A DNA stretch of 64,000 nt from Microbacteriaceae bacterium (lineage in GTDB: Bacteria; Actinomycetota; Actinomycetes; Actinomycetales; Microbacteriaceae): the NCBI GenBank assembly GCA_947452675.1, contig CANGDL010000001.1:1-64000 (forward strand), read 5' to 3'. This document shows, one piece after another, positions 9,197 to 56,171 of this stretch. The position numbers were made by a program, and so were the translations under genes. Under the pieces are notes generated by a model, which was not told the origin of the DNA, did no database searches, and saw nothing but the letters and a program-made list of their open reading frames with translations. Numbering within the stretch: the first letter of the stretch is position 1; every line of letters begins with the position of its first letter.

Positions 9197-10036
9197 ATGG
9201 CAAAGGCAAACAAGGCCGCAACGGATTCGCGTTTCGCGAAGCCAAAGCCGCTGAGCTCGCATGGGCCGGCGCGCATTATCGCCATGTGTAACCAAAAGGG
9301 TGGCGTTGGAAAGACCACCACGAGCATCAACATGTCTGCAGCGCTCGCCGAGTACGGTCGCAAGGTTTTGCTTATCGACTATGACCCACAGGGCGCCTTG
9401 TCTGCAGGTCTAGGCGTGAATGCTCATGACGCAATCACCATATATGACCTGATGCTAGATCGAAAAATCGACCCGAAGACTGCCATCCAGCACACTGCCG
9501 TGCAAAACTTGGATGTCATCCCGGCGAACATTGAGCTTTCCGCTGCTGAGATGAAATTGGTTAACGAAATTGCCCGTGAGCAGATCTTGGCCAATATCCT
9601 CAGGAAGGTAGCCGACGATTACGACGTAATTGTCATTGACTGCCAGCCGTCACTCGGTCTACTTACCGTAAACGCACTTACGGCTGCGCACGGTGTAATC
9701 ATTCCACTTGCAAGCGAATTCTTTGCCCTTCGCGGCGTAGCAATCCTCGAGGACATCATCGGGAAGGTTCAGGAGGGGTTGAACCCTGCCCTTCAACTCG
9801 ACGGCATCCTTGCGACCATGTATGACGCTCGCACGCTTCACTCTCGTGAAGTGCTTGATCGCTTGCACGAAGCCTTTGGTCAAAAAGTATTCCGCAGCGT
9901 AATCAACCGAACTGTTAAGTTTCCAGATGCGACTGTGGCTCAGGCCCCGATTACTTCCTATGCGCCAGATTCTGATGCGGCCGAGGCCTACCGCACCGTC
10001 GCCCGTGAACTAGTGGATCGTGGCTGCGCCCCATAA
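9197..10036 (+). CDS. ParA-family ATPase next to scpAB
   Basis: 279 aa. A basic N-terminal tail of about 25 residues precedes the deviant Walker A motif [12 protein letters not shown] near 33-44, the DYDPQG motif and VIDCQPSLG. This is the ParA/Soj type that dimerises on ATP and binds DNA non-specifically. The scpA-linked paralogue (Rv1708 position) lacks an adjacent ParB, so it is probably not the oriC partition ATPase. A role with condensin-type ScpAB in chromosome organisation is inferred from the neighbours only. It overlaps scpA by 17 bases. Confidence 0.88.
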   Translation: MAKANKAATDSRFAKPKPLSSHGPARIIAMCNQKGGVGKTTTSINMSAALAEYGRKVLLIDYDPQGALSAGLGVNAHDAITIYDLMLDRKIDPKTAIQHTAVQNLDVIPANIELSAAEMKLVNEIAREQILANILRKVADDYDVIVIDCQPSLGLLTVNALTAAHGVIIPLASEFFALRGVAILEDIIGKVQEGLNPALQLDGILATMYDARTLHSREVLDRLHEAFGQKVFRSVINRTVKFPDATVAQAPITSYAPDSDAAEAYRTVARELVDRGCAP

Positions 10037-18344: not shown

Positions 18345-18410
18345 CCACGCCCAAAGCGTAACCCCGCGTTACATCTATGTTTCCGACCCGTCCCCGAAGC
18401 ATTTTTTCGG

Positions 18411-18422
18411 TAGAATTACCTA
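18411..18422 (+). promoter_or_regulatory. -10 element six bases before the pyc start codon
   Basis: TAGAAT at 18411-18416, six bases, then ATG at 18423. No Shine-Dalgarno sequence lies between, so pyc mRNA is probably leaderless. TAGAAT is a near-consensus sigma-A -10. Confidence 0.55.
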
Positions 18423-21400
18423 ATGTTCAAGAAGATTCTGGTTGCAAACCGTGGGGAAATTGCTGTTCGTGCTTTTCGAGCAGCTTACGAACTCGGAGCA
18501 AAGACAGTTGCTGTATTTCCTTATGAAGACCGCAACTCTACCCACCGGCTGAAAGCCGACGAGGCATACCAGATTGGCGAAATTGGCCACCCGGTTCGTG
18601 CGTATCTCGACGTTTCTGAGATCATCCGAGTCGCCCTTGAGAGCGGCGCGGATGCGATTTACCCTGGTTACGGATTCCTTTCAGAGAATCCAGAGTTGGC
18701 CGAGGCTGCCCGAGCTAACGGGATTGCCTTTATCGGACCGAGTTCTGAAGTTCTTGAAATGGCAGGCAATAAGGTCACGGCTAAAGAGTCTGCGATTCGT
18801 GCTGGAGTTCCTGTATTGGCTTCTTCGCCACAGTCAGCCGATGTTGATGAATTAATTGGTTACGCCGAAAAGATCGGTTTCCCGATTTTCGTCAAGGCAG
18901 TTGCAGGTGGCGGTGGCCGCGGAATGCGTCGCGTAGCCGAAGCAAAGGACCTTCGCGCGGCTCTCATTGAGGCTTCTCGTGAAGCCGACAGCGCCTTTGG
19001 TGATCCACGAGTGTTCTTGGAGCAGGCCGTATTGCGGCCTCGTCACATTGAAGTCCAAATCCTTGCCGACACTCAAGGAAACGTCGTACATCTTTTTGAG
19101 CGCGACTGCTCAATTCAACGTCGAAACCAAAAGGTCGTTGAGATCGCTCCAGCTCCGAAGATCACGGATGAACTTCGAGAGACTCTTTATCGCGACGCCG
19201 TTGCCTTTGCGTCTCAGATCGGTTATCAGAACGCTGGAACCGTCGAGTTCCTAATCGATACGGTTGGGCCGAATGCCGGCAAACACGTTTTCATCGAGAT
19301 GAACCCGCGCATTCAGGTTGAGCACACCGTCACGGAAGAGATCTCGGATGTCGATCTTGTGCAGAGCCAGATGCGAATCGCGTCGGGGGAGAGTCTGTTT
19401 GACCTTGGTCTGACGCAGGACAAAATTCAGATGCACGGTTTTGCAATTCAGTGCCGCATCACCACCGAAGACCCAGCAGCAAACTTCCGCCCAGACACCG
19501 GCAAAATCACGACCTACCGCTCACCTGGTGGCGCAGGAATTCGCTTGGATGGTGGAACCGTCTCGACGGGTGCCGAAGTTAGCCCATACTTCGACTCGAT
19601 GTTGGTCAAGTTGATTGCCACGGGTCGCGACTTCAAGACTGCGGTAACCCGTGCGAAGCGAGGACTTGCCGAGTTCCGCATCCGCGGTGTTTCAACGAAC
19701 ATCGCTTTTTTGCAGGCGGTTCTAGCCGACGAAATCTTCGCGACGGGCGACCTAAGCACCTCGTTTATCGATGAACACCCGGAGCTTTTCACTGCAAAAC
19801 CTTCGCAAGACCGCGGCAGCAAGATAATTTCTTGGCTTGCCGATGTCACGGTAAACCAGCCAAACGGGCCGCGTGGTCACCAGTTGACTCCGGCTGCAAA
19901 GCTTCCTTCAATTGACATCAGTGCGCCTGCCCCTTCTGGTTCGCGTCAGCGCCTTCTCGAGCTTGGGCCAGCCGGTTTTGCCAAGGCGCTCCGCGCTCAG
20001 ACTCAGGTGGCGGTCACCGACACCACCTTCCGTGATGCCCACCAATCACTCTTGGCGACAAGAGTGCGCGGGCGTGACCTCATCCAGGTTGCTCCTTATG
20101 TTTCTCGCCTAACTCCACAACTTCTATCGGTTGAAGGATGGGGCGGCGCTACCTACGATGTTGCGCTTCGATTCCTAGGAGAAGACCCTTGGGAGCGTCT
20201 GGCCGCACTTCGTCAGGCAATGCCAAACCTTTGCATTCAGATGCTGCTCCGCGGCCGAAACACCGTGGGCTACACGCCGTACCCAACCGAGGTGACCGAG
20301 GCCTTCGTGGCCGAGGCAGCCGCAACCGGTGTAGACATCTTCCGTATCTTTGACGCCCTAAACGACGTCGACCAGATGAAGCCTGCCATCGACGCCGTTT
20401 TGAAGACTGGTACCGCAGTGGCAGAGGTCGCACTTTGTTACACCGCAGATCTCCTAGACCCAGACGAGAAGCTCTACACTCTGGACTACTACTTGAACCT
20501 CGCTCAGCAAATTGTTGATGCAGGCGCGCACATTATCGCCATCAAGGACATGGCTGGACTCCTGCGTCCGGCAGCCGCTGAGAGGCTTGTGAAGGCTCTG
20601 CGGGAGCGATTTGACCTTCCAGTTCACCTTCACACTCACGATACTGCCGGTGGCCAATTGGCAACCCTTATGGCTGCCATCGGTGCCGGCGTGGATGCGG
20701 TCGATGTTGCAAGCGCACCAATGGCCGGAACCACGAGCCAGCCATCGGCCTCGGCATTGGTTGCGGCACTTGCTCACACAGAGCGTGACAGTGGCATTCC
20801 ATTGTCGGCGGTAGCCGAGCTCGAGCCATACTGGGAGGCCGTTCGCAAGGTTTACCACCCATTCGAGTCTGGTCTTCCTGGGCCAACCGGTCGGGTTTAT
20901 CACCACGAAATCCCGGGAGGGCAGCTCTCGAACCTTCGCCAGCAAGCAATTGCACTTGGTCTCGGTGACCAGTTCGAAAAGGTCGAGAACATGTATGCCT
21001 CGGCAAACGAAATCCTGGGCCGTCCGACTAAGGTGACACCTTCATCTAAGGTGGTTGGCGACCTTGCTTTGCACCTAGTCGCGGTGAACGCAGATCCAGC
21101 CGATTTCGCTTTGAACCCTCAGAACTACGACGTGCCTGACTCGGTTGTCGGCTTCATGGCTGGTGAACTTGGTGACCTTCCTGGCGGTTGGCCGGAACCA
21201 TTCCGCACCAAGGTGCTCCAGGGTAAGAATCCTAAATTCGGAGTTACTCCAGTCTCGGCTGAAGACCTGGCGTCACTTGTTGGTAGCGACTCGGCTATCC
21301 GTCGTTCGACCCTTAATCGTCTTTTGTTCCCAGGCCCAACCGCAGATTTCTTGAAATCTCAGGAAACCTATGGAAATCTTGACCAAATTGACACCGTTGA

Positions 21401-21830
21401 TTATCTCTATGGTCTCGAGCAGGGCCGCGAACACGTAGTTGAAATCGCTAAGGGCGTTCGACTCTATGTAGGTCTGGAGGCCATCGGAACGCCGGATGCC
21501 AAGGGCTACCGAACGGTTATGGCCACCCTTAATGGTCAGCTAAGGCCAATCAACGTGCGCGACCGAAAGATTGCGGTTGACACTGTGCAGGCGGAGAAGG
21601 CCGACACCGGCAACCTTGGTCATGTGGCAGCACCGTTCTCAGGTGTCGTGACCCTTCAGACTGTTGAAGGTGCGCACGTCGAGGTTGGCCAGCCAATCGC
21701 AACCATTGAGGCCATGAAGATGGAAGCAACCATAACTTCAAATATTGCTGGTGTGGTGCGCCGCCTAGCAGTTTCCAAGACCCAGGCGGTGGACGCCGGT
21801 GACCTGATTGTGGTCGTCGTCGCCGAATAA
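18423..21830 (+). CDS. pyc: pyruvate carboxylase
   Basis: 1135 aa single-chain enzyme. Residues 1-460 are biotin carboxylase (ATP-grasp, AVAGGGGRGMRRV loop, EMNPRIQVEHTVTEE). Residues 530-800 are the carboxyltransferase TIM barrel beginning VAVTDTTFRDAHQSLLATR and carrying the HLHTHDTAGG metal site. A linker domain follows and residues 1060-1135 are a biotinyl carrier domain with EAMKMEA (Lys about 1099). It makes oxaloacetate from pyruvate and bicarbonate. The single-gene location with its own promoter fits an independent anaplerotic enzyme. A strong hairpin follows. Confidence 0.97.
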   Translation: MFKKILVANRGEIAVRAFRAAYELGAKTVAVFPYEDRNSTHRLKADEAYQIGEIGHPVRAYLDVSEIIRVALESGADAIYPGYGFLSENPELAEAARANGIAFIGPSSEVLEMAGNKVTAKESAIRAGVPVLASSPQSADVDELIGYAEKIGFPIFVKAVAGGGGRGMRRVAEAKDLRAALIEASREADSAFGDPRVFLEQAVLRPRHIEVQILADTQGNVVHLFERDCSIQRRNQKVVEIAPAPKITDELRETLYRDAVAFASQIGYQNAGTVEFLIDTVGPNAGKHVFIEMNPRIQVEHTVTEEISDVDLVQSQMRIASGESLFDLGLTQDKIQMHGFAIQCRITTEDPAANFRPDTGKITTYRSPGGAGIRLDGGTVSTGAEVSPYFDSMLVKLIATGRDFKTAVTRAKRGLAEFRIRGVSTNIAFLQAVLADEIFATGDLSTSFIDEHPELFTAKPSQDRGSKIISWLADVTVNQPNGPRGHQLTPAAKLPSIDISAPAPSGSRQRLLELGPAGFAKALRAQTQVAVTDTTFRDAHQSLLATRVRGRDLIQVAPYVSRLTPQLLSVEGWGGATYDVALRFLGEDPWERLAALRQAMPNLCIQMLLRGRNTVGYTPYPTEVTEAFVAEAAATGVDIFRIFDALNDVDQMKPAIDAVLKTGTAVAEVALCYTADLLDPDEKLYTLDYYLNLAQQIVDAGAHIIAIKDMAGLLRPAAAERLVKALRERFDLPVHLHTHDTAGGQLATLMAAIGAGVDAVDVASAPMAGTTSQPSASALVAALAHTERDSGIPLSAVAELEPYWEAVRKVYHPFESGLPGPTGRVYHHEIPGGQLSNLRQQAIALGLGDQFEKVENMYASANEILGRPTKVTPSSKVVGDLALHLVAVNADPADFALNPQNYDVPDSVVGFMAGELGDLPGGWPEPFRTKVLQGKNPKFGVTPVSAEDLASLVGSDSAIRRSTLNRLLFPGPTADFLKSQETYGNLDQIDTVDYLYGLEQGREHVVEIAKGVRLYVGLEAIGTPDAKGYRTVMATLNGQLRPINVRDRKIAVDTVQAEKADTGNLGHVAAPFSGVVTLQTVEGAHVEVGQPIATIEAMKMEATITSNIAGVVRRLAVSKTQAVDAGDLIVVVVAE

Positions 21831-21836: not shown

Positions 21837-21884
21837 AAACGTTTACACGCCGGTCAGCTAGACTTGACCGGCGTGTAAACGTTT
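21837..21884. terminator. perfect 20-bp inverted repeat after pyc
   Basis: AAACGTTTACACGCCGGTCA at 21837-21856 pairs perfectly with 21865-21884, separated by an 8-nt loop. It starts seven bases after the pyc stop. No U-tract follows (GTGAATATTC), so termination may depend on the hairpin alone, as in many actinobacteria. Each arm also ends in the palindrome AAACGTTT, so an operator role is an alternative. Confidence 0.75.
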
Positions 21885-21944
21885 GTGAATATTCACACGC
21901 GCTCTCATAGGCGCTGATACGTTACGAGATTAAAGGAGATCGGT

Positions 21945-23150
21945 TTGGCTATTTGGGGTAAGAAACCAGAAGATGAGTCAACTGACTTTTTGGCACCACG
22001 CCCGGCAACCGACATCACAGTCCAGAAGAGCCATTCGCTCGCTGAGATTGCTGTTGATGCCGGTGCAGTTGATGTGACCCCGAGCACCTCATCAATCGAA
22101 ATCATCGCGGAAGAGCCTCGTTTCCAAGCTCAACCGGAGACCTCTCTAGAGCCCGTCCGTAGAAGTAACTATTCTCGACGCGACAGCCTTCGAGGCGAGA
22201 ACTTCGACCAACCTGAACCTGCTGCAATGCTCACAGCAGATCGACTTATCGATGTGTCCGCAAGAAACCGCCCAGCACCCGAATCTGGCTTCCGTCGTTT
22301 CCTTTACTTCTTGTCCCTCAAGACAATCAACCTGGGTGACTCCCTAAAGGTTCGCGAGCAAAAGGCGATCGATGCTCGCATAGGCGCGGCACTCGAAGGT
22401 GGAGCAAAGTTCCTTCCTGTGCTCACCCGAAAAGGCGGTGTTGGAAAGACCACTGTCAGCACCTTGCTTGGTATGGCGCTGGCCCTTTCTCGTGAAGATC
22501 GCATCATCGCGATTGACGCGAACCCAGACCGTGGAACACTTGCTGAACGCGTAAGTAAATCAACGCGCTTCACAGTCCGAGACGTGGTTAACCGTGCAGC
22601 AGCGATAGACGGTTTCACTGATTTCTCGACAATGGTTTCTCGTGACGTTACTCGACTCGACGTGCTTGCTTCTGACAGTGACCCAATGCTTTCGGAGGCT
22701 TTCGATGAGGGTGACTACAACGTCGTGGCCGACATGGCAGCCCGCTATTATTCAATCGTTCTAACCGACTGCGGCACAGGAATTGTCCACTCGGTAATGC
22801 GCCCAACACTTCAGCGCGCTAATGGTTTGGTTATCGTTTCCGGTGGTTCAGTTGATGAGGCTCGTTTGGCCTCTGAAACTCTAACTTGGCTTGAGGCAAA
22901 CGGCTACGGCGACCTTGTTCGAAACTCAATTGTGGCGCTAAACACTGCTACTCAGGCAACTCAGCTGGTCAAACTTGATGAGATTGAGCAACACTTCAAG
23001 ACTCGCGTTCGTCACGTAGTTCGAATCCCTTATGACCCAGCCCTTGCGGCGGGTTCTGTGATCAAGTTCAAGGACCTGCGCAAAGGAACCCGCGATGCTG
23101 CTCGCGAGCTTGCCGCTCTTGTGGTCGACGGTTTAAACAGCCCTCTATAA
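21945..23150 (+). CDS. MinD/ParA-like ATPase of the ESX-associated type
   Basis: 401 aa from a TTG start with AAAGGAG upstream. Residues 1-100 are disordered and polar. A basic segment near 105-120 ([20 protein letters not shown]) resembles the region before the ATPase in MinD-like proteins of mycobacterial ESX loci. The ATPase has [11 protein letters not shown] near 163-173, [15 protein letters not shown] and IVLTDCGTG. The ANPDRGTL motif is characteristic of that group rather than of Soj/ParA or MinD proper. No type VII secretion gene is visible nearby, so it is an orphan here. The partner and function are unknown. It ends five bases before def. Confidence 0.8.
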
Positions 23151-23154: not shown

Positions 23155-23652
23155 ATGACCGTACGAGAAATTCGCCTCTATGGCGACCCCGTTTTGCGCA
23201 CCACTTGCGACCCAATAAAGTCCATTGATGACAAGGTTAGGTCTCTGGTCGAGGATTTGATTGACACCACAATGCTTCCCGGTCGTGCTGGCGTCGCGGC
23301 TCCGCAAATTGGGGTGAGCCTTCGCGCATTCAGCTTTAATGTCGATGGCAAAGTTGGCTACCTAATCAATCCAGAGATTGTGGAACTAAGCGGCGAGAAG
23401 ATTTTGGTCGATGAAGGATGCCTATCGGTTCCTGGTCTTTGGCACAAAACCCCTAGATATCAAACTGCTCGTGCTCGAGGCATCGACTTGGACGGAAACG
23501 AAATCGAGCTGGTTGGCAGTGGCCTTATGGCTCAAGCGCTCCAGCATGAATGCGATCACTTAGACGGCATGGTTTATCTTGGTCGCCTTGAGCCTGAGGA
23601 GCGCAAACTTGCAATGAAGCGTCTTCGCGACACAGATTGGTTTCTGAACTAA
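23155..23652 (+). CDS. def: peptide deformylase
   Basis: 165 aa. Motif 1 reads [12 protein letters not shown], motif 2 EGCLSV with the metal-binding Cys, and motif 3 QHECDHLDG with the two metal His and catalytic Glu. It removes the formyl group from nascent N-termini. The ATG at 23155 lies four bases past the ATPase stop, suggesting co-transcription. Length is typical. Confidence 0.95.
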
Positions 23653-39673: not shown

Positions 39674-40770
39674 GAGCGATTCTGCTCGCCGGCGCAGTAG
39701 CAATGGCGTTTACCCTTCTGGTCACACCGGGCTTTATCTGGCTATTCCGCCGGCTAAAGTGGGGCCAATTCATCCGAGAAGATGGGCCGCAGAGCCACAA
39801 GACTAAGCACGGAACGCCAACTATGGGTGGCGTGGTCATCATCGTGGCAGTTGTTCTCGGTTACTTTGTCGGCAAACTGGCAAACTTCGAAGCCCCTACC
39901 GCATCGGCATTATTGGTTTTGTTCATGCTGGTTGGCCTCGGATTGGTCGGCTTCATCGATGACTTCATAAAGACTCATAAGCAAAGAAGCTTGGGACTAA
40001 CCGGTTGGGCGAAAATTGCACTCCAAGGCGTTGTGGCCACCGCCTTCGCAATCATGGCTTTGCAATTTCCCAACGATCGCAATCTGACACCAGCGTCTAC
40101 AAAAATATCCTTCACTCGAGACCTGCCAATCGATCTGATGTTCTTCGGTTCGGTAATCGGAGTGATCCTCTTCATTGTGTGGATCTACTTCCTCGTTGCC
40201 GGAACCTCAAATGGTGTGAACATAGCAGACGGCCTAGACGGCTTGGCGACCGGTTCTAGCATCATGGCAATTGGCGCGTATGCAATCATCGGGTTCTGGG
40301 AATTTAACCAGAGCTGCGGTTCCGTCGCAGAGAATCTCTCCTCTTGCTACAACGTTCGCGACCCGCTTGACTTAGCCGTAGTAGCTTCGGCGCTAGTCGG
40401 GGCGCTGGCCGGTTTCCTTTGGTGGAATACTTCACCCGCCCAAATCTTCATGGGAGACACAGGTTCCCTCGGTCTCGGCGGAGCACTGGCGTCATTAGCG
40501 ATTCTTTCGAGAACTGAACTTCTCCTCGTCCTAATCGGCGGCATCTTTGTTATTGTCACCGGTTCAGTAATCATTCAGCGAGGTTGGTTCAAACTCACCA
40601 AGTGGCGCACGGGAACTGGGCGCAGGGTTTTCTTGATGAGTCCGCTTCATCATCACTTTGAGCTCAAAGGTTGGGCACAAATTACGGTGGTCATTCGCTT
40701 CTGGATTATTTGCGGGCTATCCGTGCTCACTGGCATTGGGATCTTCTACATCAACTGGATCTATGGTTAG
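39670..40770 (+). CDS. mraY: phospho-MurNAc-pentapeptide transferase MraY
   Basis: 366 aa integral membrane protein with about ten hydrophobic segments, from a GTG overlapping the murF stop. [29 protein letters not shown], the catalytic [12 protein letters not shown] and [13 protein letters not shown] are all present. It moves phospho-MurNAc-pentapeptide from UDP to undecaprenyl phosphate, making lipid I. Location in mid-dcw is standard. Confidence 0.96.
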
Positions 40771-40775
40771 TTTGA

Positions 40776-42248
40776 ATGGCTGACCTTGACCAATTAACCA
40801 GTTGGCATTCCAACTGGGACGAAATTCACGCACTTGTCTTCGGGCTTGGCGTATCCGGATTTTCAGCCGCAGACACGCTGGCGGAACTCGGCGCAAAGAC
40901 CCTCGTGGTCGCCAAAAATGCCGAACCTGATTTGCTCGACATCCTTGACGTCATCGGAGTCCCTCATATCACCGGCGATGCCGCAAATGGTGTGCCAGCG
41001 GCTGTTGTGGAATTCAAACCAGATCTCGTAATCGTCTCGCCCGGAATTCGCCCAGACAACGAACTCCTGCGATGGGCTGCTGAACAAGGCGTTGCAATTT
41101 GGGTCGACATTGATCTCGCCTGGCGTTTACGAGATAAAACCGACCGTCTGGCTCACTGGTTTACAGTGACGGGAACGAACGGCAAAACCACGACCGTGCA
41201 ATTGTTGACCGCGATGCTTAATCAGGGCGGCATCAAGGCCGAAGCCTGCGGAAACATAGGAAAGCCAATACTGGACGTGATTCGAGACCCCGAGGGGTTC
41301 GATGCGATTGTCGTTGAACTTTCAAGTTTTCAACTGCACTATCTCGGCGAGATTTTTCCATTCTCGAGCGCCGCACTCAACCTCGCCGATGATCACCTCG
41401 ACTGGCATGGTGGCTTTGAGGAATACAAGGCGGCTAAGGCAAAGGTATATGAGAATACTGTTGCCGCCTGTGTTTACAACGTCATGGATAAGGCAACCGA
41501 ATCAATGGTTGAAGACGCCGATGTCGTTGATGGTGCTCGAGCGATTGGCTTCACTCTTGGCATCCCGTCTAGGAGTCAAATCGGTTTCGTGGAGGACATA
41601 CTTTGCGACCGGGCCTTTCTAGATGATCGAGCCAATAACGCCGTCGAAATCGCGACCCTTGAAGATTTAAGTGAAATTGGCCTGCTTACTCCGCACCTCA
41701 TGGCTAACACCGCTGCTGCAGCGGCGATGGCACGTTCGGCCGGAGTGGACCCAGGTGACATCAGAGACGCCATTCGAAACTTCAGACTTGATGCACACCG
41801 AATTGAACTGGTTGCTGAGGCGAATGGAGTCCGATGGATTGATGATTCCAAGGCAACGAACCCACATGCGGCAGCTGCTTCACTCGCTTCGTTTGATCGA
41901 GTGATTTGGATAGTTGGCGGCCTTTTAAAGGGAGTGGACATCAGCCCACTTGTGAAGAAGAATGCCCAAAAACTTGCAGCAGCGATAATCATTGGCAAAG
42001 ACCGTCAACTGGTTGTGGCTGCACTGAAAGAACAGGCGCCGGAGGTTCCCGTCGTAGAGATTCTTGCCGAAACGGGTCAGGCTGTCATGGATGAGGCCGT
42101 TGCCGCGGCCGCCAAATTTGCCCACGATGGCGATGTTGTGCTCTTGGCGCCAGCAGCGGCATCGATGGATCAATTTAAGGATTACGCCGATCGAGGAAAT
42201 AGTTTTTCCATCGCCGCCAGGGCGCTGATCGGGGGAGCGCATGGCTAA
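40776..42248 (+). CDS. murD: UDP-MurNAc-L-Ala:D-Glu ligase MurD
   Basis: 490 aa, slightly longer than E. coli MurD. N-terminal UDP-binding Rossmann half with LVFGLGVSGFSAADTLAELG; P-loop TVTGTNGKTTTVQL near 131; DDSKATNPHAA near 354 in the C-terminal part. It adds D-glutamate to UDP-MurNAc-L-Ala. Its end overlaps ftsW by eight bases. Confidence 0.95.
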   Translation: MADLDQLTSWHSNWDEIHALVFGLGVSGFSAADTLAELGAKTLVVAKNAEPDLLDILDVIGVPHITGDAANGVPAAVVEFKPDLVIVSPGIRPDNELLRWAAEQGVAIWVDIDLAWRLRDKTDRLAHWFTVTGTNGKTTTVQLLTAMLNQGGIKAEACGNIGKPILDVIRDPEGFDAIVVELSSFQLHYLGEIFPFSSAALNLADDHLDWHGGFEEYKAAKAKVYENTVAACVYNVMDKATESMVEDADVVDGARAIGFTLGIPSRSQIGFVEDILCDRAFLDDRANNAVEIATLEDLSEIGLLTPHLMANTAAAAAMARSAGVDPGDIRDAIRNFRLDAHRIELVAEANGVRWIDDSKATNPHAAAASLASFDRVIWIVGGLLKGVDISPLVKKNAQKLAAAIIIGKDRQLVVAALKEQAPEVPVVEILAETGQAVMDEAVAAAAKFAHDGDVVLLAPAAASMDQFKDYADRGNSFSIAARALIGGAHG

Positions 42249-43476
42249 GAACAAGCCACGCATCGGGCGAGTCAATTTGGCGCAATCGGGCGCGGGTTTG
42301 CAAGAGCTTTTTGGTCGCGTGTTTCGCGCACAGTCGATTTATTTCTACCAACTACTCGGAGTGACCCTTTTCTTGGTCGCCTTTGGCTTGGTTATGGTGC
42401 TTTCGGCTTCCTCGATTGACGCTTTGAAGGCCTCTAATAATTCCTTCGCCATCTTCAGTAAACAGGCAATATTTGCTCTGCTCGGATTGATAGGCATGTC
42501 GCTCGCCTCACTTATGTCGATGAACTGGTGGCGAGGTAAGGCCAAGCTCTTTTACATCGCCTTCATGGCTTTGCAGCTAGCGGTTTTATTTATCGGTAAG
42601 GATATCAACGGAAACCGAAATTGGATCAGCATCTTCGGTATCGCTGTTCAGCCTTCCGAGTTCCTAAAAGTTGCGGTTGTGTTGCATGTAGCCGTCTTTC
42701 TTTCGGCTCGAACTCGTGAATTGGATGACGTAACTACGTGGCGAAAAGCGGGAGTGATGATGGGTGCCGCCATGATTCTCGTGTTTGGCGGTAAAGACCT
42801 CGGAACGATGCTGATTATGCTCATCATGTTCGTCGGTCTATTGGCACTGGCTGGAATGCCGATGAAGTTATTGCGCCTGATTGGATTGGCTACCGTTGTC
42901 ATCATTCCGCTCTTGCTAACCTTCGGTTCGGGTTCCCGCGTAGGTCGAATCACGGCATGGCTCAACCCGAGTGCTCCAGATCCAAATGGTTACAACTGGC
43001 AATCGGAGCACGGCATGTGGGCTATCTCGGCCGGCCGAATCTTCGGTGCCGGTCTCGGGGAATCAAAAATGAAATGGTCTTGGATTCCCGAGGTTGAAAA
43101 CGACTTTATTTTTGCAGTTATATCCGAAGAACTTGGCCTAATTGGCGCGCTGGTAGTGGTGGCTCTATTCGTGGCTCTCGCGGTTTCTTTCTTCAGAATT
43201 TGGAAGCGAACCTCGGATGATTTCAGCAGGTACGTAGTTTCTGGGATCATGATTTGGATAGTCTTCCAGGCATTGATCAATATGGCGGTTGTGCTTCGTC
43301 TGTTGCCAGTGCTCGGTGTTCCATTGCCATTGATTTCGGCCGGTGGCTCGTCGCTCATTGCGACGCTTGGGGCAATTGGCATTGTTCTCGCAGTTGAACG
43401 TGAGAATCACGCAAATCCGCTCTCCGGGCGTCAAGGTCGCATGCCTCAGACTCGACAACTAAGGCGAGTGCGATGA
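42241..43476 (+). CDS. ftsW: peptidoglycan polymerase FtsW (SEDS family)
   Basis: 411 aa, about ten membrane segments. GNRNWISIFGIAVQPSEFLK, the SEDS signature region near 125-145, and the late PLPLISAGGSSL near 360 are conserved. A basic cytosolic N-terminal part of 35 residues precedes the first helix. It polymerises lipid II at the septum with FtsI. The C-terminus is short and basic. The murG ATG overlaps its TGA. Confidence 0.95.
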   Translation: MAKNKPRIGRVNLAQSGAGLQELFGRVFRAQSIYFYQLLGVTLFLVAFGLVMVLSASSIDALKASNNSFAIFSKQAIFALLGLIGMSLASLMSMNWWRGKAKLFYIAFMALQLAVLFIGKDINGNRNWISIFGIAVQPSEFLKVAVVLHVAVFLSARTRELDDVTTWRKAGVMMGAAMILVFGGKDLGTMLIMLIMFVGLLALAGMPMKLLRLIGLATVVIIPLLLTFGSGSRVGRITAWLNPSAPDPNGYNWQSEHGMWAISAGRIFGAGLGESKMKWSWIPEVENDFIFAVISEELGLIGALVVVALFVALAVSFFRIWKRTSDDFSRYVVSGIMIWIVFQALINMAVVLRLLPVLGVPLPLISAGGSSLIATLGAIGIVLAVERENHANPLSGRQGRMPQTRQLRRVR

Positions 43477-44540
43477 CCAATTTTCTACTCGCTGGCGGCG
43501 GCACGGCCGGCCATGTGAACCCGCTTTTATCACTAGCTGATGCGATTATGAGCGACGACACTGGCAACCGAGTTTGGGCTCTTGGAACTCGGGAGGGGCT
43601 AGAAGCCACCTTGGTTCCTGAGCGAGGATATGAGCTTTTGATTGTGGACCGCTTGCCTTTTCCTCGAAAGCCTTCGCTTTATGCGCTCAGTTTTCCAATC
43701 CGATTCCGTAATGCTGTGAACCAGGTTAAGAAATACCTGAGAAATCACAATATCGACGTGGTCGTTGGTTTCGGTGGTTATGCATCCGCACCTGCCTACC
43801 TTGCGGCTAAGAGCCTTGGCATCCCTGTGGTGGTTCACGAAGCAAACGCACTGCCGGGGTGGGCTAATAAGCTCGGTTCGAAATCAGCAAAAGCTGTTGG
43901 CGTTGCTTTCCATTCAACGCCGCTGCCAAAGGCTACGTTCGTGGGAATGCCACTTCGTAAAGAAATTGAAGAACTCGCTCAAGGCACTGACCAAGAGGCA
44001 GCGCGAATACACTTTGGTCTAGATCCAGACACCGTGACCCTTCTGGTCACCGGCGGCTCGCTTGGTGCAAAGCGCATCAATGAGACCATCGAAAAGTCTC
44101 GCAAAGTGCTTTCAGCGGCAGGGATCCAGGTGCTCCACATCGTTGGTGGTCGTTCGGACCTTCCCGAAATTCACTCAAAAGATTATGTGAGATTGGCTTA
44201 CTGTGATCGCATGGATTTGGCTATTTCTGCAAGCAACGCTGCGGTTTCGCGTGCTGGCGCATCTACCGTAAGCGAGTTTGCGGCGGTTGGGCTTCCGGCT
44301 GTTTATGTGCCTTATCCGGTTGGCAATGGGGAACAGAAACTCAACGTCGCCGAACTGGTTTCCGCGGATGGCGGCATCCTGGTTCCAGACGTTGATTTCA
44401 CTCCTGACTATGTCTCGAATTTTGTGGTTCCACTTGTATCCAATTCGAGAGCTCTCGCCGATATGGCTGCCAAAGCTCGCAAAGTTGGCGTCGCAGATGG
44501 CACCGCAAGGCTGCTACGCCTTGTAAAAGGCGTGTTGTAG
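43473..44540 (+). CDS. murG: lipid II synthase MurG
   Basis: 355 aa GT-B glycosyltransferase. LLAGGGTAGHVNPLL at 4-18 is the first glycine-rich loop, GFGGYASAPAYLAAK the second, VTGGSLGAKRIN the start of the C-terminal half, and SRAGASTVSEFAAVGLPAVYVP binds UDP-GlcNAc. It adds GlcNAc to lipid I at the inner leaflet. A 52-base gap to murC contains TAGTCT, a possible extra promoter. Confidence 0.95.
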   Translation: MTNFLLAGGGTAGHVNPLLSLADAIMSDDTGNRVWALGTREGLEATLVPERGYELLIVDRLPFPRKPSLYALSFPIRFRNAVNQVKKYLRNHNIDVVVGFGGYASAPAYLAAKSLGIPVVVHEANALPGWANKLGSKSAKAVGVAFHSTPLPKATFVGMPLRKEIEELAQGTDQEAARIHFGLDPDTVTLLVTGGSLGAKRINETIEKSRKVLSAAGIQVLHIVGGRSDLPEIHSKDYVRLAYCDRMDLAISASNAAVSRAGASTVSEFAAVGLPAVYVPYPVGNGEQKLNVAELVSADGGILVPDVDFTPDYVSNFVVPLVSNSRALADMAAKARKVGVADGTARLLRLVKGVL

Positions 44541-44592
44541 AGCCCAAAACTAGATCACTCAACCTAGTCTTTAGGGGATAGTTAGGAACGCC

Positions 44593-45981
44593 ATGATCAA
44601 GCCAGATTTCACCCAGAGAGTCCCCGACGACTTGGGAACCGTGCACTTCGTTGGAATCGGCGGATCGGGCATGAGTGGCATAGCCCGCATCCTACTTGGC
44701 ATGGGCCATAGGGTGACCGGAAGTGACCTTCGTGACACCGATGCGGTTGCATCGTTGCGTGCCTTAGGCGCGGAAATCTTCATCGGGCATGATGAAAAAC
44801 ACCTCGGAAACCCTGACACCGTGGTTGTGACGTCGGCATTGTGGCCGACGAACCCGGAATATTTGCTTGCCAAGGAGCGCGGGATTCCTGTCATTCACCG
44901 CTCTCAGGCGCTTGCATACCTAACCTCAAAGCGGCGCGTCATCGCGGTCGCTGGAGCTCACGGCAAGACGACAAGCACGGGCATGATCATCACAGGTCTG
45001 TTGGGGTTGGGAGAAGACCCATCTTTCGTAAACGGTGGAGTGATTGCATCTTTGAACGCTTCATCTGCAAGCGGTTCGGGCAACCTTTTTGTCATCGAGG
45101 CAGATGAATCTGATGGTTCATTCCTGCATTACGACACTGCCATCGCTCTGATAACTAACGTGGATGCCGATCACCTTGACCACTACGGGAGCGAGGAGGC
45201 TTTTGAATCTGAATTTGGCCGATTTGCTCAAGGGGCTAAGGAGTTTGTTGCAATTAGTTCGGATGATCCTGGTGCTGTTCGGGTTAGCAAGCTAATCAAG
45301 GAAAAGCGGGTTCTCGGCTTTGGTCGAGCGGAGGGTTCAGCAGTTCGCCTAATTGACGTGGATGCCTCTGGCGCGCGGGTGTCTTTTGGGCTGGTTTATG
45401 AAGGCAAAACCTACCGGGCCGAATTAAACGTTCCTGGTGAGCACAACGCAGTAAACGCCGCTGGCGCATTCGCAGTCTTGGTCGGTCTCGGTTTTGACCC
45501 GGCCAAATCGCTTGCGGAAATAAGTGAGTTTGGCGGAACCGAAAGACGCTTTGAACTCCACGGCGAAGAACGTGGCGTCAAGGTTTATGACGATTTTGCT
45601 CACCACCCGACCGAAGTAGCGGCAGCCATCAAGGCTGCTCGCGCTGTGGTTGGCAAAGGTCGGATTATTACAGTGTTTCAGCCGCATCTCTACAGCCGAA
45701 CTCGTTTAATGGCCAAAGAATTCGCGCAAGCTCTTTCGGCTAGCGATGAAGTCGTCGTACTCGACATTTACGCAGCGCGTGAAGATCCGGAACCGGGAGT
45801 TACGGGTGCGCTTGTGAGTGACGCCTTCACCGACCAGTCACAGGTTCACTATGTCCCAGTCTGGGATGACGTCCCCGCCGTAGCCGCCGCGTTGGCGCAT
45901 GAAGGCGACTTTATTATGACGATGGGTTGCGGTGACATCTATCGCATGGTTCCGGCGCTTCTCGAGGCCCTAGAAGGTTAA
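44593..45981 (+). CDS. murC: UDP-MurNAc:L-Ala ligase MurC
   Basis: 462 aa. Starts with [18 protein letters not shown] (UDP-MurNAc Rossmann), P-loop [13 protein letters not shown] near 119, [10 protein letters not shown], and [11 protein letters not shown] near 333 as in MurC. It adds L-alanine, the first amino acid of the stem peptide. ftsQ begins one base after its stop. Confidence 0.95.
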
Positions 45982-45982
45982 A

Positions 45983-46897
45983 TTGAAGCGTCCAGGCCCA
46001 GCTAAGAAAGGCGATGTCAAGGGGCTTCCCAAAACCCCAGCATCTGTGACGCCGCTCGCGCCTAAGCGCGTGCAAAAAGTAGCTACGGCTAGGGTGAGGA
46101 ACAAGCCGGTTCGAGACTCTAAGCCGATTAAGGCTTCTAAAGCTGGAAAAGTCGGCTTATTTACAAAGCTGTCACCCGAGGCAAGGCGCTTTGTTGCGGC
46201 TTCGAGGCGTAGAAAAATTATTGCGCTTCTCATTTCAAGTTCCTTTGCATTGCTCACAATGTTGATTCTGGCAACCATGTTCACCCCGATGTTAGCCGTT
46301 GAAAATCTCGAAGTCACTGGAACGCATCGAATCGATCACGCGACCATCCTCAAGGCTCTAGGAAAGCAGGTTGGAGTGCCGTTGCCGATGGTGAATACGC
46401 ATGCCATCGCCGACAGCCTTGCACCTTTTGCGCTCGTCGATAGCTTTGCGGTCGTGAGCTTGCCTCCTCACACGCTCCGCATTGCAATCACCGAACGTCA
46501 ACCGATCTGCATAGTGACCGTCGCTGGCATTGACTACCTGTATGACCCTGCCGGAGTTCGGATCGGCACCGCGAGCCAATCAGATAATTACCCGAGGATC
46601 GCAATTGTCGGCGACCCGAGGGGGAGCGTAGAGTTTGGTGCCGCAATAGACGTCTTGCTGGCCCTCCCAGCGGATCTTCTCGGACAGATTGCCACTGTGG
46701 ATGCCAAGAGCAAGGATGATGTTTCTATGCGTCTTCGCGGGAACGCTGGGCAACGAATAGTTTGGGGTGATGGTTCACAATCGGTACTGAAATCCAAGGT
46801 GTTAGCGGCCCTGATAAAGAACCAGCAAAAGACCGATTATGTGACCTTCGATGTGTCTTCACCGACGGCCCCCGTGGTTCGCTACGGAAACTTTTAG
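45983..46897 (+). CDS. ftsQ: division protein FtsQ
   Basis: 304 aa from a TTG. A basic cytoplasmic tail of about 70 residues precedes one membrane helix near 76-98 (ALLISSSFALLTMLILATMF). The POTRA domain starts at VENLEVTGTHRIDHATILKAL, and the FtsQ beta domain includes ITERQPICIV. FtsQ joins the early and late division proteins, probably with the FtsL-like protein in this cluster. The TTG is the only plausible start near the end of murC. Confidence 0.92.
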   Translation: MKRPGPAKKGDVKGLPKTPASVTPLAPKRVQKVATARVRNKPVRDSKPIKASKAGKVGLFTKLSPEARRFVAASRRRKIIALLISSSFALLTMLILATMFTPMLAVENLEVTGTHRIDHATILKALGKQVGVPLPMVNTHAIADSLAPFALVDSFAVVSLPPHTLRIAITERQPICIVTVAGIDYLYDPAGVRIGTASQSDNYPRIAIVGDPRGSVEFGAAIDVLLALPADLLGQIATVDAKSKDDVSMRLRGNAGQRIVWGDGSQSVLKSKVLAALIKNQQKTDYVTFDVSSPTAPVVRYGNF

Positions 46898-46915
46898 ACA
46901 CGCCAAGCAACCTCC

Positions 46916-46927
46916 GACCTTAAGGTC
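46916..46927. promoter_or_regulatory. 12-bp palindrome upstream of ftsZ
   Basis: GACCTTAAGGTC is a perfect palindrome 19 bases after the ftsQ stop and about 70 bases upstream of a possible ftsZ -10. It could be an operator. No protein can be assigned from the sequence. Confidence 0.35.
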
Positions 46928-46994
46928 CAAAATACGTTTACTTTCTTCGCGCAGGAGAATAAATTCGCCGAACTATCAGCCTTTGGTTGAAGCT

Positions 46995-47039
46995 TAGGGT
47001 TATTCGATTGCCAAGCTCACTGAGCAGAAGCGGAGGAAT
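46995..47039 (+). promoter_or_regulatory. putative ftsZ promoter and RBS
   Basis: TAGGGT at 46995-47000 is a candidate -10 in the 145-base ftsQ-ftsZ gap. A leader of about 35 bases carries GGAGGA at 47032-47037 ahead of the ATG at 47043. The long gap by local standards suggests ftsZ has its own control. Confidence 0.4.
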
Positions 47040-47042
47040 ATC

Positions 47043-48284
47043 ATGGGTCTAAACCAGAACTATCTGGCAGTCATCAAGGTCGTTGGCGTTGGTGGCGGTG
47101 GCGTTAATGCGCTGAACCGAATGATTGACGCGGGTTTACGTGGCGTAGAGTTCGTCGCGATTAACACCGATGCTCAGGCGCTTCTTATGAGCGAAGCACA
47201 CGTGAAACTTGACATCGGCCGTGAGCTAACGCGAGGCCTCGGTGCAGGTGCAGACCCAGAAATCGGTCGCCGAGCCGCTGAAGATCACACAGACGAGATT
47301 GAGGCCGCGCTGAAGGGCGCGGATATGGTTTTCGTCACCGCTGGTGAAGGTGGCGGCACGGGAACCGGTGCGGCTCCAGTAGTCGCAAGAATTGCGAAGA
47401 ACCTAGAAGCCTTGACTGTCGGTGTCGTAACCCGACCATTTGGCTTCGAGGGCAAGCGCCGATCTCAGCAGGCAGACCAAGGAATCGACGTCCTTCGTGG
47501 CGAAGTGGATACCTTGATTGTGGTTCCAAACCAACGCTTGCTTGAGCTTGTGAATAAGTCTGTTTCGGTTGTAGAAGCCTTTGCGACGGCTGACGACGTT
47601 TTACGCGCCGGTGTTCAGGGCATCACTGACCTAATCACCACCCCGGGTCTCATCAACCTCGACTTTGCTGACGTCAAGTCGGTCATGAAGGGTGCGGGTT
47701 CGGCGCTAATGGGAATCGGTACAGCAAAGGGCGAAGACCGAGCAGTCCGCGCCGCCGAAATTGCTGTCTCAAGCCCACTTCTAGAAGCCAGCATCGATGG
47801 CGCACACGGCGTTTTGTTGCTCATCCAAGGTGCTTCTGATCTTGGATTGCACGAAATTGACGAAGCAGCTCGCCTGGTGCAGGAGGCGGTTAGCCCAGAG
47901 GCCAACATCATTTATGGCACGACAATCGACGACACGCTTGGTGATGAAGTTAGAATCACCGTCATCGCGGCTGGTTTTGATGGTGGGACACCGCAACCGC
48001 GCAAGGTCGAGCGCACTCCTTACTCGAACCCACTGAGCGCACCGGCTGCACCTGCAGCTCCTGCTGCCGCGTCATCATCGGCAGCTAACGGTTGGTTTAC
48101 TACTTCAAGTGAAGTTTCAAGCAACACGGCATCGGTGCCAGTTGTACCTGCAATCGAACCAGAGGAAGCCTCTCCGGCGTCTGAATCGGCTATCAGTAGC
48201 CTGTTCTCGCCATCAACTCCTAAACCTCAAACCGAGGATGGAACCTTTGGCGACGATCTGGATATCCCTGACTTCCTGAAGTAA
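47043..48284 (+). CDS. ftsZ: cell-division tubulin FtsZ
   Basis: 413 aa. [17 protein letters not shown], the tubulin signature GGGTGTG at 103-109, NTDAQAL and the catalytic T7 loop [11 protein letters not shown] near 207 are intact. Residues 315-395 are a linker with Ala/Pro and Ser runs. The C-terminal peptide [10 protein letters not shown] is the conserved tail that binds SepF (and other partners) in actinobacteria, which lack FtsA. sepF lies just downstream. Confidence 0.98.
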
Positions 48285-48290
48285 TCGCGC

Positions 48291-48974
48291 GTGTCTTTAG
48301 CTGAGCGCCTGGCTGATGCCCAGCAGAGGATCTCTGCTGCGGCCGCTTCAGCAAACCGAGAGCCTGGGGCAATTCAACTTATCGTTGTAACAAAGAATCA
48401 CCCGACTCAACTAGTTTTTGATTTACTGGACCTCGGCGTTCGCGATTTTGGTGAAAACCGTGACCAAGAGGCCTCCCCAAAGGCTGTTGAGGTCCGATCG
48501 GTTACGAAGATTGAACATCGCTGGCACTTCATCGGTCAGTTGCAGAGCAACAAGGTAAAGTCCGTAATATCCTATGCAAGTTCGATTCACTCGCTCGATC
48601 GCCAGTCGCTCCTCGACGCGCTGGGTAAAGCCACCACCGAACGAGAACAACCCCTCGATGTGTTCATTCAACTAAACCTCACGGATGACCCTGGACGCGG
48701 GGGAATCCAACCCGTTGATCTCTTGCCTTTTGCCGAAAGTGTGCTTGCACATCCGGGTTTGAGGTTGGTTGGGGTTATGGGTGTTGCATCACTCGACAAT
48801 GAGCTGGAGCGCGATTTCAGCGCCATCCAAAAGGCAAGCGAAAGCATTAGAACTGTAGCTCCCGACGCGCAGCTTATTTCTGCCGGAATGTCGGAGGATT
48901 TCGAAACGGCCATTGCCTATGGTGCGACACACTTGCGCATTGGTAGCGCAATCACGGGAAAACGTCAGTACTAG
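48291..48974 (+). CDS. YggS-family PLP-binding protein
   Basis: 227 aa from a GTG six bases after ftsZ. The fold-III PLP barrel is indicated by IVVTKNHPTQLVFDLLDLGVRDFGENR (PLP Lys in TKNHP), WHFIGQLQSNKV and LSAGMSEDFETAIAYGATHLRIGSAI-type end motifs. PLPBP/YggS proteins keep PLP homeostasis and have no known catalysis. The usual actinobacterial order is ftsZ-pgeF-yggS-sepF; no pgeF-like gene lies between here. Confidence 0.92.
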   Translation: MSLAERLADAQQRISAAAASANREPGAIQLIVVTKNHPTQLVFDLLDLGVRDFGENRDQEASPKAVEVRSVTKIEHRWHFIGQLQSNKVKSVISYASSIHSLDRQSLLDALGKATTEREQPLDVFIQLNLTDDPGRGGIQPVDLLPFAESVLAHPGLRLVGVMGVASLDNELERDFSAIQKASESIRTVAPDAQLISAGMSEDFETAIAYGATHLRIGSAITGKRQY

Positions 48975-49014
48975 CCATATTCTGGGGATGTAACAATCCT
49001 CAGGAGGATAAATC

Positions 49015-49446
49015 ATGGCTGGAATTATTTCGCAGGTAACCGGTTGGCTAGGCCTATCCGATGAAGTTGAAGCGGTGCCTTCACGCCCAGCGACTTCAAC
49101 CGTTGGCGAGCAGCGTCCGGCTGCACGCGTGACCCAGATGCGCCCGCGTCGCGGCACTTCAGATGTGAACGAGATTTACACCATCGAGCCACGCAGCTAT
49201 GAGGACGCCAAGGAGGTTGCGGCCAACTACCGCCTCGGTATCCCAGTAATCGTAAACATGGGCGACATGTCAGAGGTTGACTCACGCCGCATGCTCGACT
49301 TCATGCTTGGTCTTAAGGAAGGCCTTGAAGGGCACATGAAGCGTGTGACTCTAAAGGTTTACCTTCTCACCCCGAACCACGTTGCTGTAAACAATGAAGA
49401 CGATGAAGACGGCGAAGCTGCCGACGATCTTCTAGTTCGTCCGTAA
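49015..49446 (+). CDS. sepF: division protein SepF
   Basis: 143 aa with AGGAGG upstream. The N-terminal amphipathic segment AGIISQVTGWLGLSD can lie on the membrane. The globular part from about 55 (EIYTIEPRSYEDAKEVAANYR) ends VAVNNEDDEDGE. SepF links FtsZ tails to the membrane in bacteria without FtsA. The linker between these parts is basic and Pro/Arg-rich. Confidence 0.94.
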   Translation: MAGIISQVTGWLGLSDEVEAVPSRPATSTVGEQRPAARVTQMRPRRGTSDVNEIYTIEPRSYEDAKEVAANYRLGIPVIVNMGDMSEVDSRRMLDFMLGLKEGLEGHMKRVTLKVYLLTPNHVAVNNEDDEDGEAADDLLVRP

Positions 49447-49464
49447 TTTAGGGTTTCGAAAGGC

Positions 49465-49752
49465 ATGGGCCTGATTGCGCTAGTTCTTTACTGGCTGCTT
49501 CAGGTCTATTTCTTTGCCCTTGTCGCCCGCTTCATCATCGATTTGATTCTGTCTCTTAATCGAGGCTGGCGACCAACTGGCATCCTCGTCATTATCGTGG
49601 AATCGGTCTACACAGTCACAGATCCACCACTGAAATTGGTGCGAAAAATAGTTCCACCATTGCGACTTGGTTCGATTCAGTTGGATTTTGGCTGGACAAT
49701 TCTGGTGGCTGCAATTTTCTTTGTGCAAAACCTGGTCCGTGCACTAATTTGA
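49465..49752 (+). CDS. YggT-family membrane protein
   Basis: 95 aa with two hydrophobic segments (about 4-30 and 75-95) flanking DPPLKLVRKIVPPLRLG, the YggT repeat-like motif. It is in the standard sepF-yggT-divIVA order. Function is not established; linkage to the division cluster suggests an envelope role. Confidence 0.9.
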   Translation: MGLIALVLYWLLQVYFFALVARFIIDLILSLNRGWRPTGILVIIVESVYTVTDPPLKLVRKIVPPLRLGSIQLDFGWTILVAAIFFVQNLVRALI

Positions 49753-49822
49753 TGCATTGCGGTTCTGAACAGGTTCCGCTACAAGTTAGCGCGTTTTGCG
49801 CGCCTAGGGTAACCTTTTAGAC

Positions 49823-50542
49823 ATGCCTTTAACACCCGAAGATGTAGTAAATAAGCGGTTTCAGCCCACCAAGTTTCGCGAGGGCTATGACCAGGATGAA
49901 GTCGACGACTTTCTTGATGAGATAGTTGTCGAGCTGCGCCGCCTCGGCCAAGAAAACGAAGATCTTCGTCAGCGACTGCTGGCATCAGAGTCTCGAATCG
50001 CCGAACTTCAGCGCAGTGGCGCGGGTCTAGCCGATCAACTCAACAACCCAACCGCCGAGTCGGCCTTGAGCCCAATCGTATCCAACGCCCCGAGCGCTTT
50101 CCCAGAGGCAACTCAGGACCCTTCAACTCTTGACTCAAACAACACCAATAACTTGCTCCAGTTGGCGCGAAAGCTTCACGAAGAGCACGTTCGCGATGGC
50201 CTTGCCAAGCGCGATGCACTCATCGCAGAAGGTCACGCAACCGCGGCACGCGTTGTCCGTGAGGCCGAAGCTCAGCAGCGAGCAGACATGAGCCGCCTAG
50301 AACAAGAAAAGGCCCTCATCGAGCACAGCATTCAGGAGCTGCGCAGTTTCGAGCGAGAGTACCGAATGAAGCTGAAGAGCTACATCGAGAGCCAACTCGA
50401 GGAGTTGGAGCACTCAGACGCTCCAACCACCAACACCGGTTCGACTCCAGCGATTGAGCAGAATGTATTCAATCCGAGCTACACAGCAGAGCCGGCTGCG
50501 CCGAGCAACCCATTCTCGGGTGACTTTGGTTTTGGCAACTAA
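49823..50542 (+). CDS. divIVA: polar growth organiser DivIVA/Wag31
   Basis: 239 aa. The N-terminal DivIVA domain PLTPEDVVNKRFQPTKFREGYDQDEVDDFLDEI binds membrane at negative curvature and heads a coiled coil. A Pro/Ser/Asn/Thr linker (about 80-115) separates it from a long second coil (about 115-195, with EAEAQQRADMSRLEQEKALI). The C-terminal tail is Gly/Pro/Asn-rich. The protein marks poles and septa and recruits wall synthesis in actinobacteria. TAGGGT at 49805-49810 lies 12 bases before the ATG, a possible near-leaderless promoter. Confidence 0.94.
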   Translation: MPLTPEDVVNKRFQPTKFREGYDQDEVDDFLDEIVVELRRLGQENEDLRQRLLASESRIAELQRSGAGLADQLNNPTAESALSPIVSNAPSAFPEATQDPSTLDSNNTNNLLQLARKLHEEHVRDGLAKRDALIAEGHATAARVVREAEAQQRADMSRLEQEKALIEHSIQELRSFEREYRMKLKSYIESQLEELEHSDAPTTNTGSTPAIEQNVFNPSYTAEPAAPSNPFSGDFGFGN

Positions 50543-51041
50543 GAACTCAAAACGCGCTCGACTATTCGGTTTCTTGCTAACCGCTTGGTTCGTCATTGCG
50601 ATCGACCAATTCACCAAGTTTTGGGCAATCGAAAGCCTGCATCCTGGTGTGGCTAAGCCGCTTGTCGGCGACCTGGTCAGGCTTGTCTTGGTCTACAACG
50701 ATTCAGCTGCCTTTTCGATTGGCTACGGCGTGACTTGGATTTTTGCAATCGTTTCGACTCTTGCGACCCTAGCGATCCTCTGGTTCGCGCCGAAACTAGA
50801 AACTGTAGGCTGGTCAGTGGCTGGTGGCTTGGCTCTTGGCGGAGTTGTCGGCAATCTCATCGATCGCCTTACTCGTCCTCCTGGCTTTGGTCAGGGGCAG
50901 GTCGTAGATTTCATCTCGATCCCGCTTAACTTCCCAATTTTTAACGTTGCCGACATGGCCATCGTTTCGGTGGCAGTGATTGTCGTTCTTCGAATCATGA
51001 GCGGTACTGCACTCGGAAAATCTCCAAGCAAGAACGTATGA
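50520..51041 (+). CDS. lspA: lipoprotein signal peptidase LspA
   Basis: 173 aa from a GTG at 50520 overlapping the end of divIVA; TTG at 50532 is an alternative, and the track start at 50454 would give an implausible soluble extension. Four membrane segments; catalytic Asp pair in NDSAAFSIG and FNVADMAI, plus GNLIDRL. It cleaves the signal peptide of prolipoproteins such as CtaC encoded downstream. The rluD-like ATG overlaps its stop. Confidence 0.9.
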   Translation: MTLVLATKNSKRARLFGFLLTAWFVIAIDQFTKFWAIESLHPGVAKPLVGDLVRLVLVYNDSAAFSIGYGVTWIFAIVSTLATLAILWFAPKLETVGWSVAGGLALGGVVGNLIDRLTRPPGFGQGQVVDFISIPLNFPIFNVADMAIVSVAVIVVLRIMSGTALGKSPSKNV

Positions 51042-51964
51042 GCGAATCTCGAATACTCCCGGTTCCTGAGGGGCTTGCCGGCGAGCGTGTGGATGCTGGT
51101 TTAGCTAAGTTGCTGGGGCTCTCACGCTCTGTATGTGCTGAAATGATCACCGATGGTTTGGTCTCACAAAACGGAAAAATCGTTTCAAAGTCTGATCGAT
51201 TAATGCACGATTCCTATCTCGAGGTCACTCTTCCCGAACCAAAAAACCGTCTCGAAATCGTTCCCGTTGAGGTCGCTGATTTCAAAATCATTTACCAGGA
51301 TGAAGACATCATCGTCATTGATAAGCCTGCTGGTGTTGCCTCGCATCCATCAGTTGGCTGGGATGGGCCAACGGTGCCCGGTGCACTTCTTGCCCTTGGC
51401 ATCCAAATTGCCACTTCGGGAGCCCAGGAGCGCCAAGGAATCGTTCAGCGGCTTGATGTTGGAACCAGCGGCCTGATGACGCTTGCGAAGTCAGAAGTCG
51501 CTTACTCGCGCCTCAAGCAGGCGTTTCGCGATCGCACGGTTCACAAGGTTTATCATGCCGTCATCCAAGGATTGGCTGATCCTTTGGCCGGCACCTTCGA
51601 TGCTCCCATCGGGCGCCACCCAAAGGCCGAATTCAAATTTGCGGTGATGAACGATGGCAAACATTCGGTGACACACTACGAAACGTTGGAGGCTTTTCCA
51701 TCGGCGTCACTAGTCGAGGTGGTTCTTGAGACGGGGCGCACGCATCAAATCCGAGTCCATTTCTCGGCATTCCGTCACCCGCTGGTTGGTGACACCATGT
51801 ATGGGGCAGACCCAAAGCTAGCGGTTAAGGTAAATCTTGACCGCCAGTGGTTGCATGCCAAGAAGCTGAGTTTCATCCATCCAACAAAAGGCGAAAGCGT
51901 CGAATTCGAGAGCGAATATCCAACTGATTTGGTTAAGGCGCTCGACATACTGCGAGGCTACTAA
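51038..51964 (+). CDS. RluD-type pseudouridine synthase
   Basis: 308 aa. S4 domain about 14-70 (GERVDAGLAKLLGLSRS), catalytic domain with VQRLDVGTSGLM holding the catalytic Asp and VEVVLETGRTHQIRVH near 230. The motif has Gln in place of the usual His before RLD. It isomerises uridine in rRNA, most likely helix 69 of 23S. Coupled to lspA as in most Gram-positives. Confidence 0.9.
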   Translation: MSESRILPVPEGLAGERVDAGLAKLLGLSRSVCAEMITDGLVSQNGKIVSKSDRLMHDSYLEVTLPEPKNRLEIVPVEVADFKIIYQDEDIIVIDKPAGVASHPSVGWDGPTVPGALLALGIQIATSGAQERQGIVQRLDVGTSGLMTLAKSEVAYSRLKQAFRDRTVHKVYHAVIQGLADPLAGTFDAPIGRHPKAEFKFAVMNDGKHSVTHYETLEAFPSASLVEVVLETGRTHQIRVHFSAFRHPLVGDTMYGADPKLAVKVNLDRQWLHAKKLSFIHPTKGESVEFESEYPTDLVKALDILRGY

Positions 51965-52021
51965 GCGCGACCCAATTCTTGGGTTACAGTTGCCATCCGG
52001 CAGTGAGAAAAAGGAGGATAA

Positions 52022-55558: not shown

Positions 55559-55562
55559 ACGC

Positions 55563-56077: not shown

Positions 56078-56140
56078 TTTCTACCTTTATCTCAACGGCT
56101 TCAACAATAGTCAACCGGGGATTGTTTCCGTTTCAACGCC

Positions 56141-56167: not shown

Positions 56168-56171
56168 AAAT

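Follow-up and report, generated by a model that had tools for sequence, protein, structure and literature searches.

A MinD-like ATPase encoded between pyc and def in Microbacteriaceae, a member of the ESX/EspI/Rv0530-type family

Work on MinD-like ATPases of the ESX type has been carried out mainly at mycobacterial ESX loci. ParA/MinD ATPases usually have one dedicated cargo, which they serve via a partner protein, and those whose partner is unknown have been termed orphans (PMC10241942). The ATPase described here is encoded in a stretch of 64,000 nucleotides of Microbacteriaceae DNA (the window). It has family and motif layout in common with the EspI-type ATPases of ESX loci; those are encoded among EccB/C/D and MycP, unlike the window protein, whose genus is without EccC over the curated cut-off. 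A further relative is encoded in the hemL-gpmB-trx-resB-ccsA (cytochrome-c maturation) cluster of Mycobacteriaceae and is a protein that we take to be Rv0530. This Rv0530-type protein is ~41-45% identical to the window protein, has the same GWRRxxY...NLG...KGGVGKTT...DANPDRGTL layout and is also free-standing, outside ESX loci, but it has another neighbourhood and belongs to a separate clade. The MinD-like ATPase of the conjugation locus on Clavibacter plasmid pCM2 is of the same family (35% identity), but lies in a plasmid transfer neighbourhood (TraM-like, MobF, SCO6880). FleN/FlhG, Soj/ParA and MinD share the fold and the deviant Walker motif with the window protein at 16-22% identity, but ParA and MinD fall far outside in profile score and in the tree. 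A literature search found no paper on the member encoded between pyc and def, and found Rv0530 in one unrelated trial paper.

The ATPase and its family

The open reading frame at 21945-23150 is a real gene, with a start codon, a ribosome-binding site and intact deviant-Walker motifs. The features of the locus, by window position, were as follows.

18345-18422, strand not assigned: site, empty in the window, at which most relatives carry an opposite-strand ParA-like gene (region comparison)
18423-21830, + strand: pyc, pyruvate carboxylase, the conserved upstream neighbour (Pfam, region comparison)
21837-21884, strand not assigned: perfect hairpin of 21 bp in the stretch separating pyc from the ATPase gene, a possible pyc terminator (folding)
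21932-21938, + strand: ribosome-binding site aaaggag, six bases 5' of the TTG (read in the sequence)
21945-23150, + strand: MinD-like ATPase gene, 401 aa, TTG start (ORF reading, Pfam, alignment)
21945-22262, + strand: N-terminal leader, residues 1-106, predicted to be disordered (AlphaFold2 pLDDT <50) and the fastest-evolving part
22290-22343, + strand: family motif of 18 residues (116-133), with a predicted helix at 115-123 (alignment, AlphaFold2 model)
22431-22454, + strand: deviant Walker A KGGVGKTT, residues 163-170 (invariant in the alignment)
22515-22541, + strand: DANPDRGTL, residues 191-199 (alignment)
22767-22781, + strand: DCGTG, Walker B/switch II, residues 275-279 (alignment)
23155-23652, + strand: def, peptide deformylase, starting 4 bases past the ATPase stop (Pfam, spacing)

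The earlier note had described a 401-aa ATPase with KGGVGKTT, ANPDRGTL and a leader motif, lying between pyc and def; the coordinates, motifs and neighbours were all borne out. The protein matched two Pfam models over their cut-offs (CbiA, E 2e-8; AAA_31, E 4e-7). When the window protein was aligned with 15 relatives, K163-T170 and D191-D195 were invariant, as were D275, G277, T278 and G279, and the relatives read GWRRxxY..NLGxS at the position of residues 116-133. Purifying selection on the ATPase domain was strong within the genus (dN/dS 0.004-0.046 where dS was estimable, values that are rough because dS is near saturation), and was weaker on the leader. The ATPase motifs are not due to chance, given their invariance in the aligned relatives and these dN/dS values. 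Averaged over the genus, identity to the window was 88% for pyc, 86% for the ATPase and 73% for def, so that the ATPase is better conserved than peptide deformylase. In one orthologue in the pyc slot (L121; region 40500-59500 of G180:C2), the Walker A lysine is replaced (KGGVGQTT).

In the AlphaFold2 model, residues 1-106 form the disordered leader, 115-123 and 134-146 are helical, and a P-loop ATPase fold follows. The closest solved folds, with 16-21% identity, were FleN/FlhG and ParA/Soj; FleN/FlhG was the best match, yet no flagellar gene was found among the neighbours of the ATPase gene. The chain ends 4 residues after the last helix (380-397), and a C-terminal membrane-targeting helix of the MinD kind was absent from both the alignment and the predicted structure. 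A strongly amphipathic N-terminal membrane anchor was considered and rejected: the conserved helical segment had a moment of 0.30, well under the best windows of composition-shuffled copies, so that membrane binding is unsupported by that measure.

The window protein is a member of the ESX/EspI/Rv0530-type family of actinobacterial MinD-like ATPases. A profile built from four sequences gave at least 169 bits for family members and 20-47 bits for ParA proteins and E. coli MinD. The Actinomycetes relatives share the ATPase motifs and the preceding segment WRR..Y..(N)LG.S, and the window protein has both the motif ending (R)GTL and the upstream helix motif WRR..Y..NLG.S. In the profile and in the tree, for which ParA and MinD served as outgroups, it grouped with the family rows, apart from the outgroups. 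The kinship with ESX-type MinD-like ATPases that had been suggested from the motifs is therefore correct, because the motifs and upstream segment are shared and the profile scores agree, and the tree is in accord with it. No curated NCBIfam model fitted the ATPase, the best being bacterial MinD (TIGR01968, minD_bact) with 34.8 bits, where the cut-off is 212.9; assignments to MinD, ParA or Get3/BagA were all far below the cut-offs of the curated models. MinD proper was further rejected for the lack of the C-terminal membrane-targeting helix and a position outside MinD in the tree, and Soj/ParA for the lack of grouping with ParA in the tree and of parB among the identified neighbours. The tree that the earlier note had proposed as a check thus placed the protein outside both MinD proper and ParA.

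Within the family tree, the pyc-linked rows formed one clade with a support of 100 (99 once long branches were removed). The ESX-linked rows were scattered, and their constraint to a single clade was rejected (p-AU 6e-5). The deeper branch order was weakly supported, and no weight was put on it. One branch of the family (L024-L036, L038, L039, L148-L154, L157-L160) has an altered P-loop, KGGAHKTT, and WDNNETRGTLGWR replacing DANPDRGTL.

Distribution and relation to type VII secretion

The distribution of the gene was followed in a family sample of 150 Microbacteriaceae genomes, with presence called at 250 bits or more. It was present in 102 of the 150 (about two thirds) and in 57 of the 60 genomes sampled from the genus to which the window belongs, in which the genomes keeping it measure about 0.8-1.6 Mb as assembled. 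About one third of the sampled Microbacteriaceae do without the gene, which is therefore not universally essential. Among the 102 carriers, 14 had EccC over the curated cut-off, 45 had a long EccC-like protein and 43 had FtsK-level matches only; the corresponding numbers for the 48 non-carriers were 9, 26 and 13. Across the family, then, there was no positive link between the gene and EccC (EccC or EccC-like in 59/102 carriers versus 35/48 non-carriers; odds ratio 0.51, p 0.10). Moreover, EccC over the curated cut-off was found in none of the 60 genus genomes, including one-contig genomes of 99% completeness. Because the window genome is only 85% complete, it is the genus and not the window genome that carries this argument. 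Of the type VII components, the co-occurrence searches covered EccC and WXG100.

A link to ESX by co-occurrence was rejected on these two grounds, the absence of a positive association in the family and of EccC over cut-off in the genus, and the independence from ESX that the earlier note had raised was upheld. The other possibility it had named, secretion genes elsewhere that co-occur in all relatives, does not hold for EccC, as the carriers with FtsK-level matches only indicate. In the regions read, the gene had pyc/def surroundings and was not encoded in an ESX locus (EccB/C/D, MycP). We conclude that the window ATPase is not a part of type VII secretion.

Family members at ESX loci were found on one Mycolicibacterium plasmid and in several Mycobacteriaceae regions, and members at conjugation loci included that of the Clavibacter plasmid. 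Besides the members in the Mycobacteriaceae cytochrome-c maturation cluster, other relatives adjoin unrelated household genes (dnaE/bpa, hisA, leuA). A scan of named genomes gave few true relatives among the matches listed. Free-standing copies in housekeeping surroundings are common in other Actinomycetes, and being an orphan is therefore a normal state in this family; the idea that the window gene is special in this respect did not survive the comparison.

The pyc-ATPase-def locus

The gene order around the orthologues was FHA, MerR, MerR, (ParA-like), pyc, MinD-like, def, acyl-CoA ligase, in regions from Microbacteriaceae orthologues and one genome of another family. The pyc-linked order was common to all pyc-clade regions read. 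The def gene was ~1.4 kb distant from the ATPase gene in two genera and was not detected in the pyc-linked locus of the one other-family genome. The conservation of pyc-MinD-like-def, another check proposed earlier, is wide: about two thirds of the sampled Microbacteriaceae have an orthologue in this slot, with def set apart in those two genera. The distance from the ATPase stop to the def start was -11 to +36 bases in nearly all regions, and because the two lie within a few bases of each other, def is a probable operon partner, with the ATPase probably translated from one message with it.

The intergenic stretch between pyc and the ATPase gene folds at -49.9 kcal/mol. Its 21-bp hairpin was missed by the terminator scan because it has no T-run, and is stronger in the window than in most genus relatives. 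Sites for a sigma-70 promoter or a classical terminator around the ATPase gene were no more numerous than in shuffles, and Rfam gave no match in the window. In most relatives, the second MerR gene and pyc are separated by a ParA-like gene of ~270 aa on the opposite strand. This gene is missing at 18345-18422 in the window and in its three nearest relatives (L240-L242), an absence confirmed by neighbouring genomes, and this represents a loss within the genus.

Candidate roles of the ATPase

The window ATPase combines family membership, intact ATPase motifs, a fixed neighbourhood, purifying selection and independence from EccC. We lean, by a modest degree, towards a vertically inherited, free-standing MinD/ParA-type ATPase, whose pyc-linked branch comprises copies from Microbacteriaceae and from a single genome outside that family, and which would act as an ATP switch and not as part of a type VII system. 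By analogy, it would most likely be a ParA/MinD-type positioning or recruiting switch: ATP would drive formation of a sandwich dimer, in its ATP form the protein would bind either the membrane or the nucleoid as its surface, and contact with a partner would set off hydrolysis and, with it, release. The adaptor that binds the partner or the surface is proposed to be the disordered leader together with the conserved helical segment, because the protein has no C-terminal membrane-targeting helix. Envelope or growth-zone assembly would be the most likely cargo, given that relatives sit in type VII secretion, conjugation and cytochrome-c maturation loci. More tentatively, the ancestor of the ESX MinD-like ATPases might be an old actinobacterial ATPase, free-standing and with a positioning role, that was recruited on more than one occasion by type VII secretion and conjugation loci; the Microbacteriaceae copy would then retain a role outside secretion, in which it positions a core assembly of the envelope or of growth. 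As an ATPase the window protein is ordinary; it adds a new member to a known family, on a conserved branch not linked to ESX. Well conserved in organisms that lack EccC, and apparently unstudied, this member could reveal the ATPase's own role, and such genes should not be annotated as secretion parts.

The absence of EccC, EccB and WXG100 reported for the window was seen again in the stretches read, but for WXG100 it did not extend to the whole genome. The window genome encodes one WXG100 protein, its gene beside groEL (L001:1474-1761), and a protein of 342 aa that has a single FtsK/SpoIIIE domain and is hydrophobic at its N-terminus (L003:1120-2148; G000:C7:50579-51604), both far from the ATPase gene. 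The ATPase could therefore be imagined to serve a reduced type VII-like system made up of these two proteins, both of which are found across the genus: WXG100 occurs in 54 of 60 genus genomes, though EccC over cut-off in none, most genus genomes have the single-ATPase-domain FtsK/SpoIIIE protein (versions of 318-560 aa), and against EccC this small protein outscores the FtsK of the window genome (124.8 vs 97.4 bits). However, in genomes assembled as one contig the three genes are widely separated, and the small FtsK-type gene has its own conserved gene order, which, with the lack of a positive EccC association across the family, makes such a service improbable.

A role in chromosome or division positioning, in the manner of Soj or MinD, is unlikely: the fold class is the same (TM-scores by target length ~0.65-0.8 for ParA/Soj and MinD) and the switch motifs are intact, but the minD_bact score, the place in the tree outside ParA and MinD and the missing C-terminal targeting helix all speak against it, and no gene for ParB or MinC/MinE was found among the identified neighbours. 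The fixed place between pyc and def could also suggest a regulator of its neighbours, acting on carboxylation or deformylation rather than as a positioner; this is improbable, as relatives elsewhere adjoin unrelated genes (the ccs cluster, dnaE/bpa, hisA, leuA) and the link to def is broken in some genomes.

The window carries another ParA-like gene at 9197-10036, located after a tyrosine-recombinase gene and before a pair of genes resembling scpA and scpB (a sequence reading, unscored). This gene is of a lineage separate from that of the MinD-like gene.
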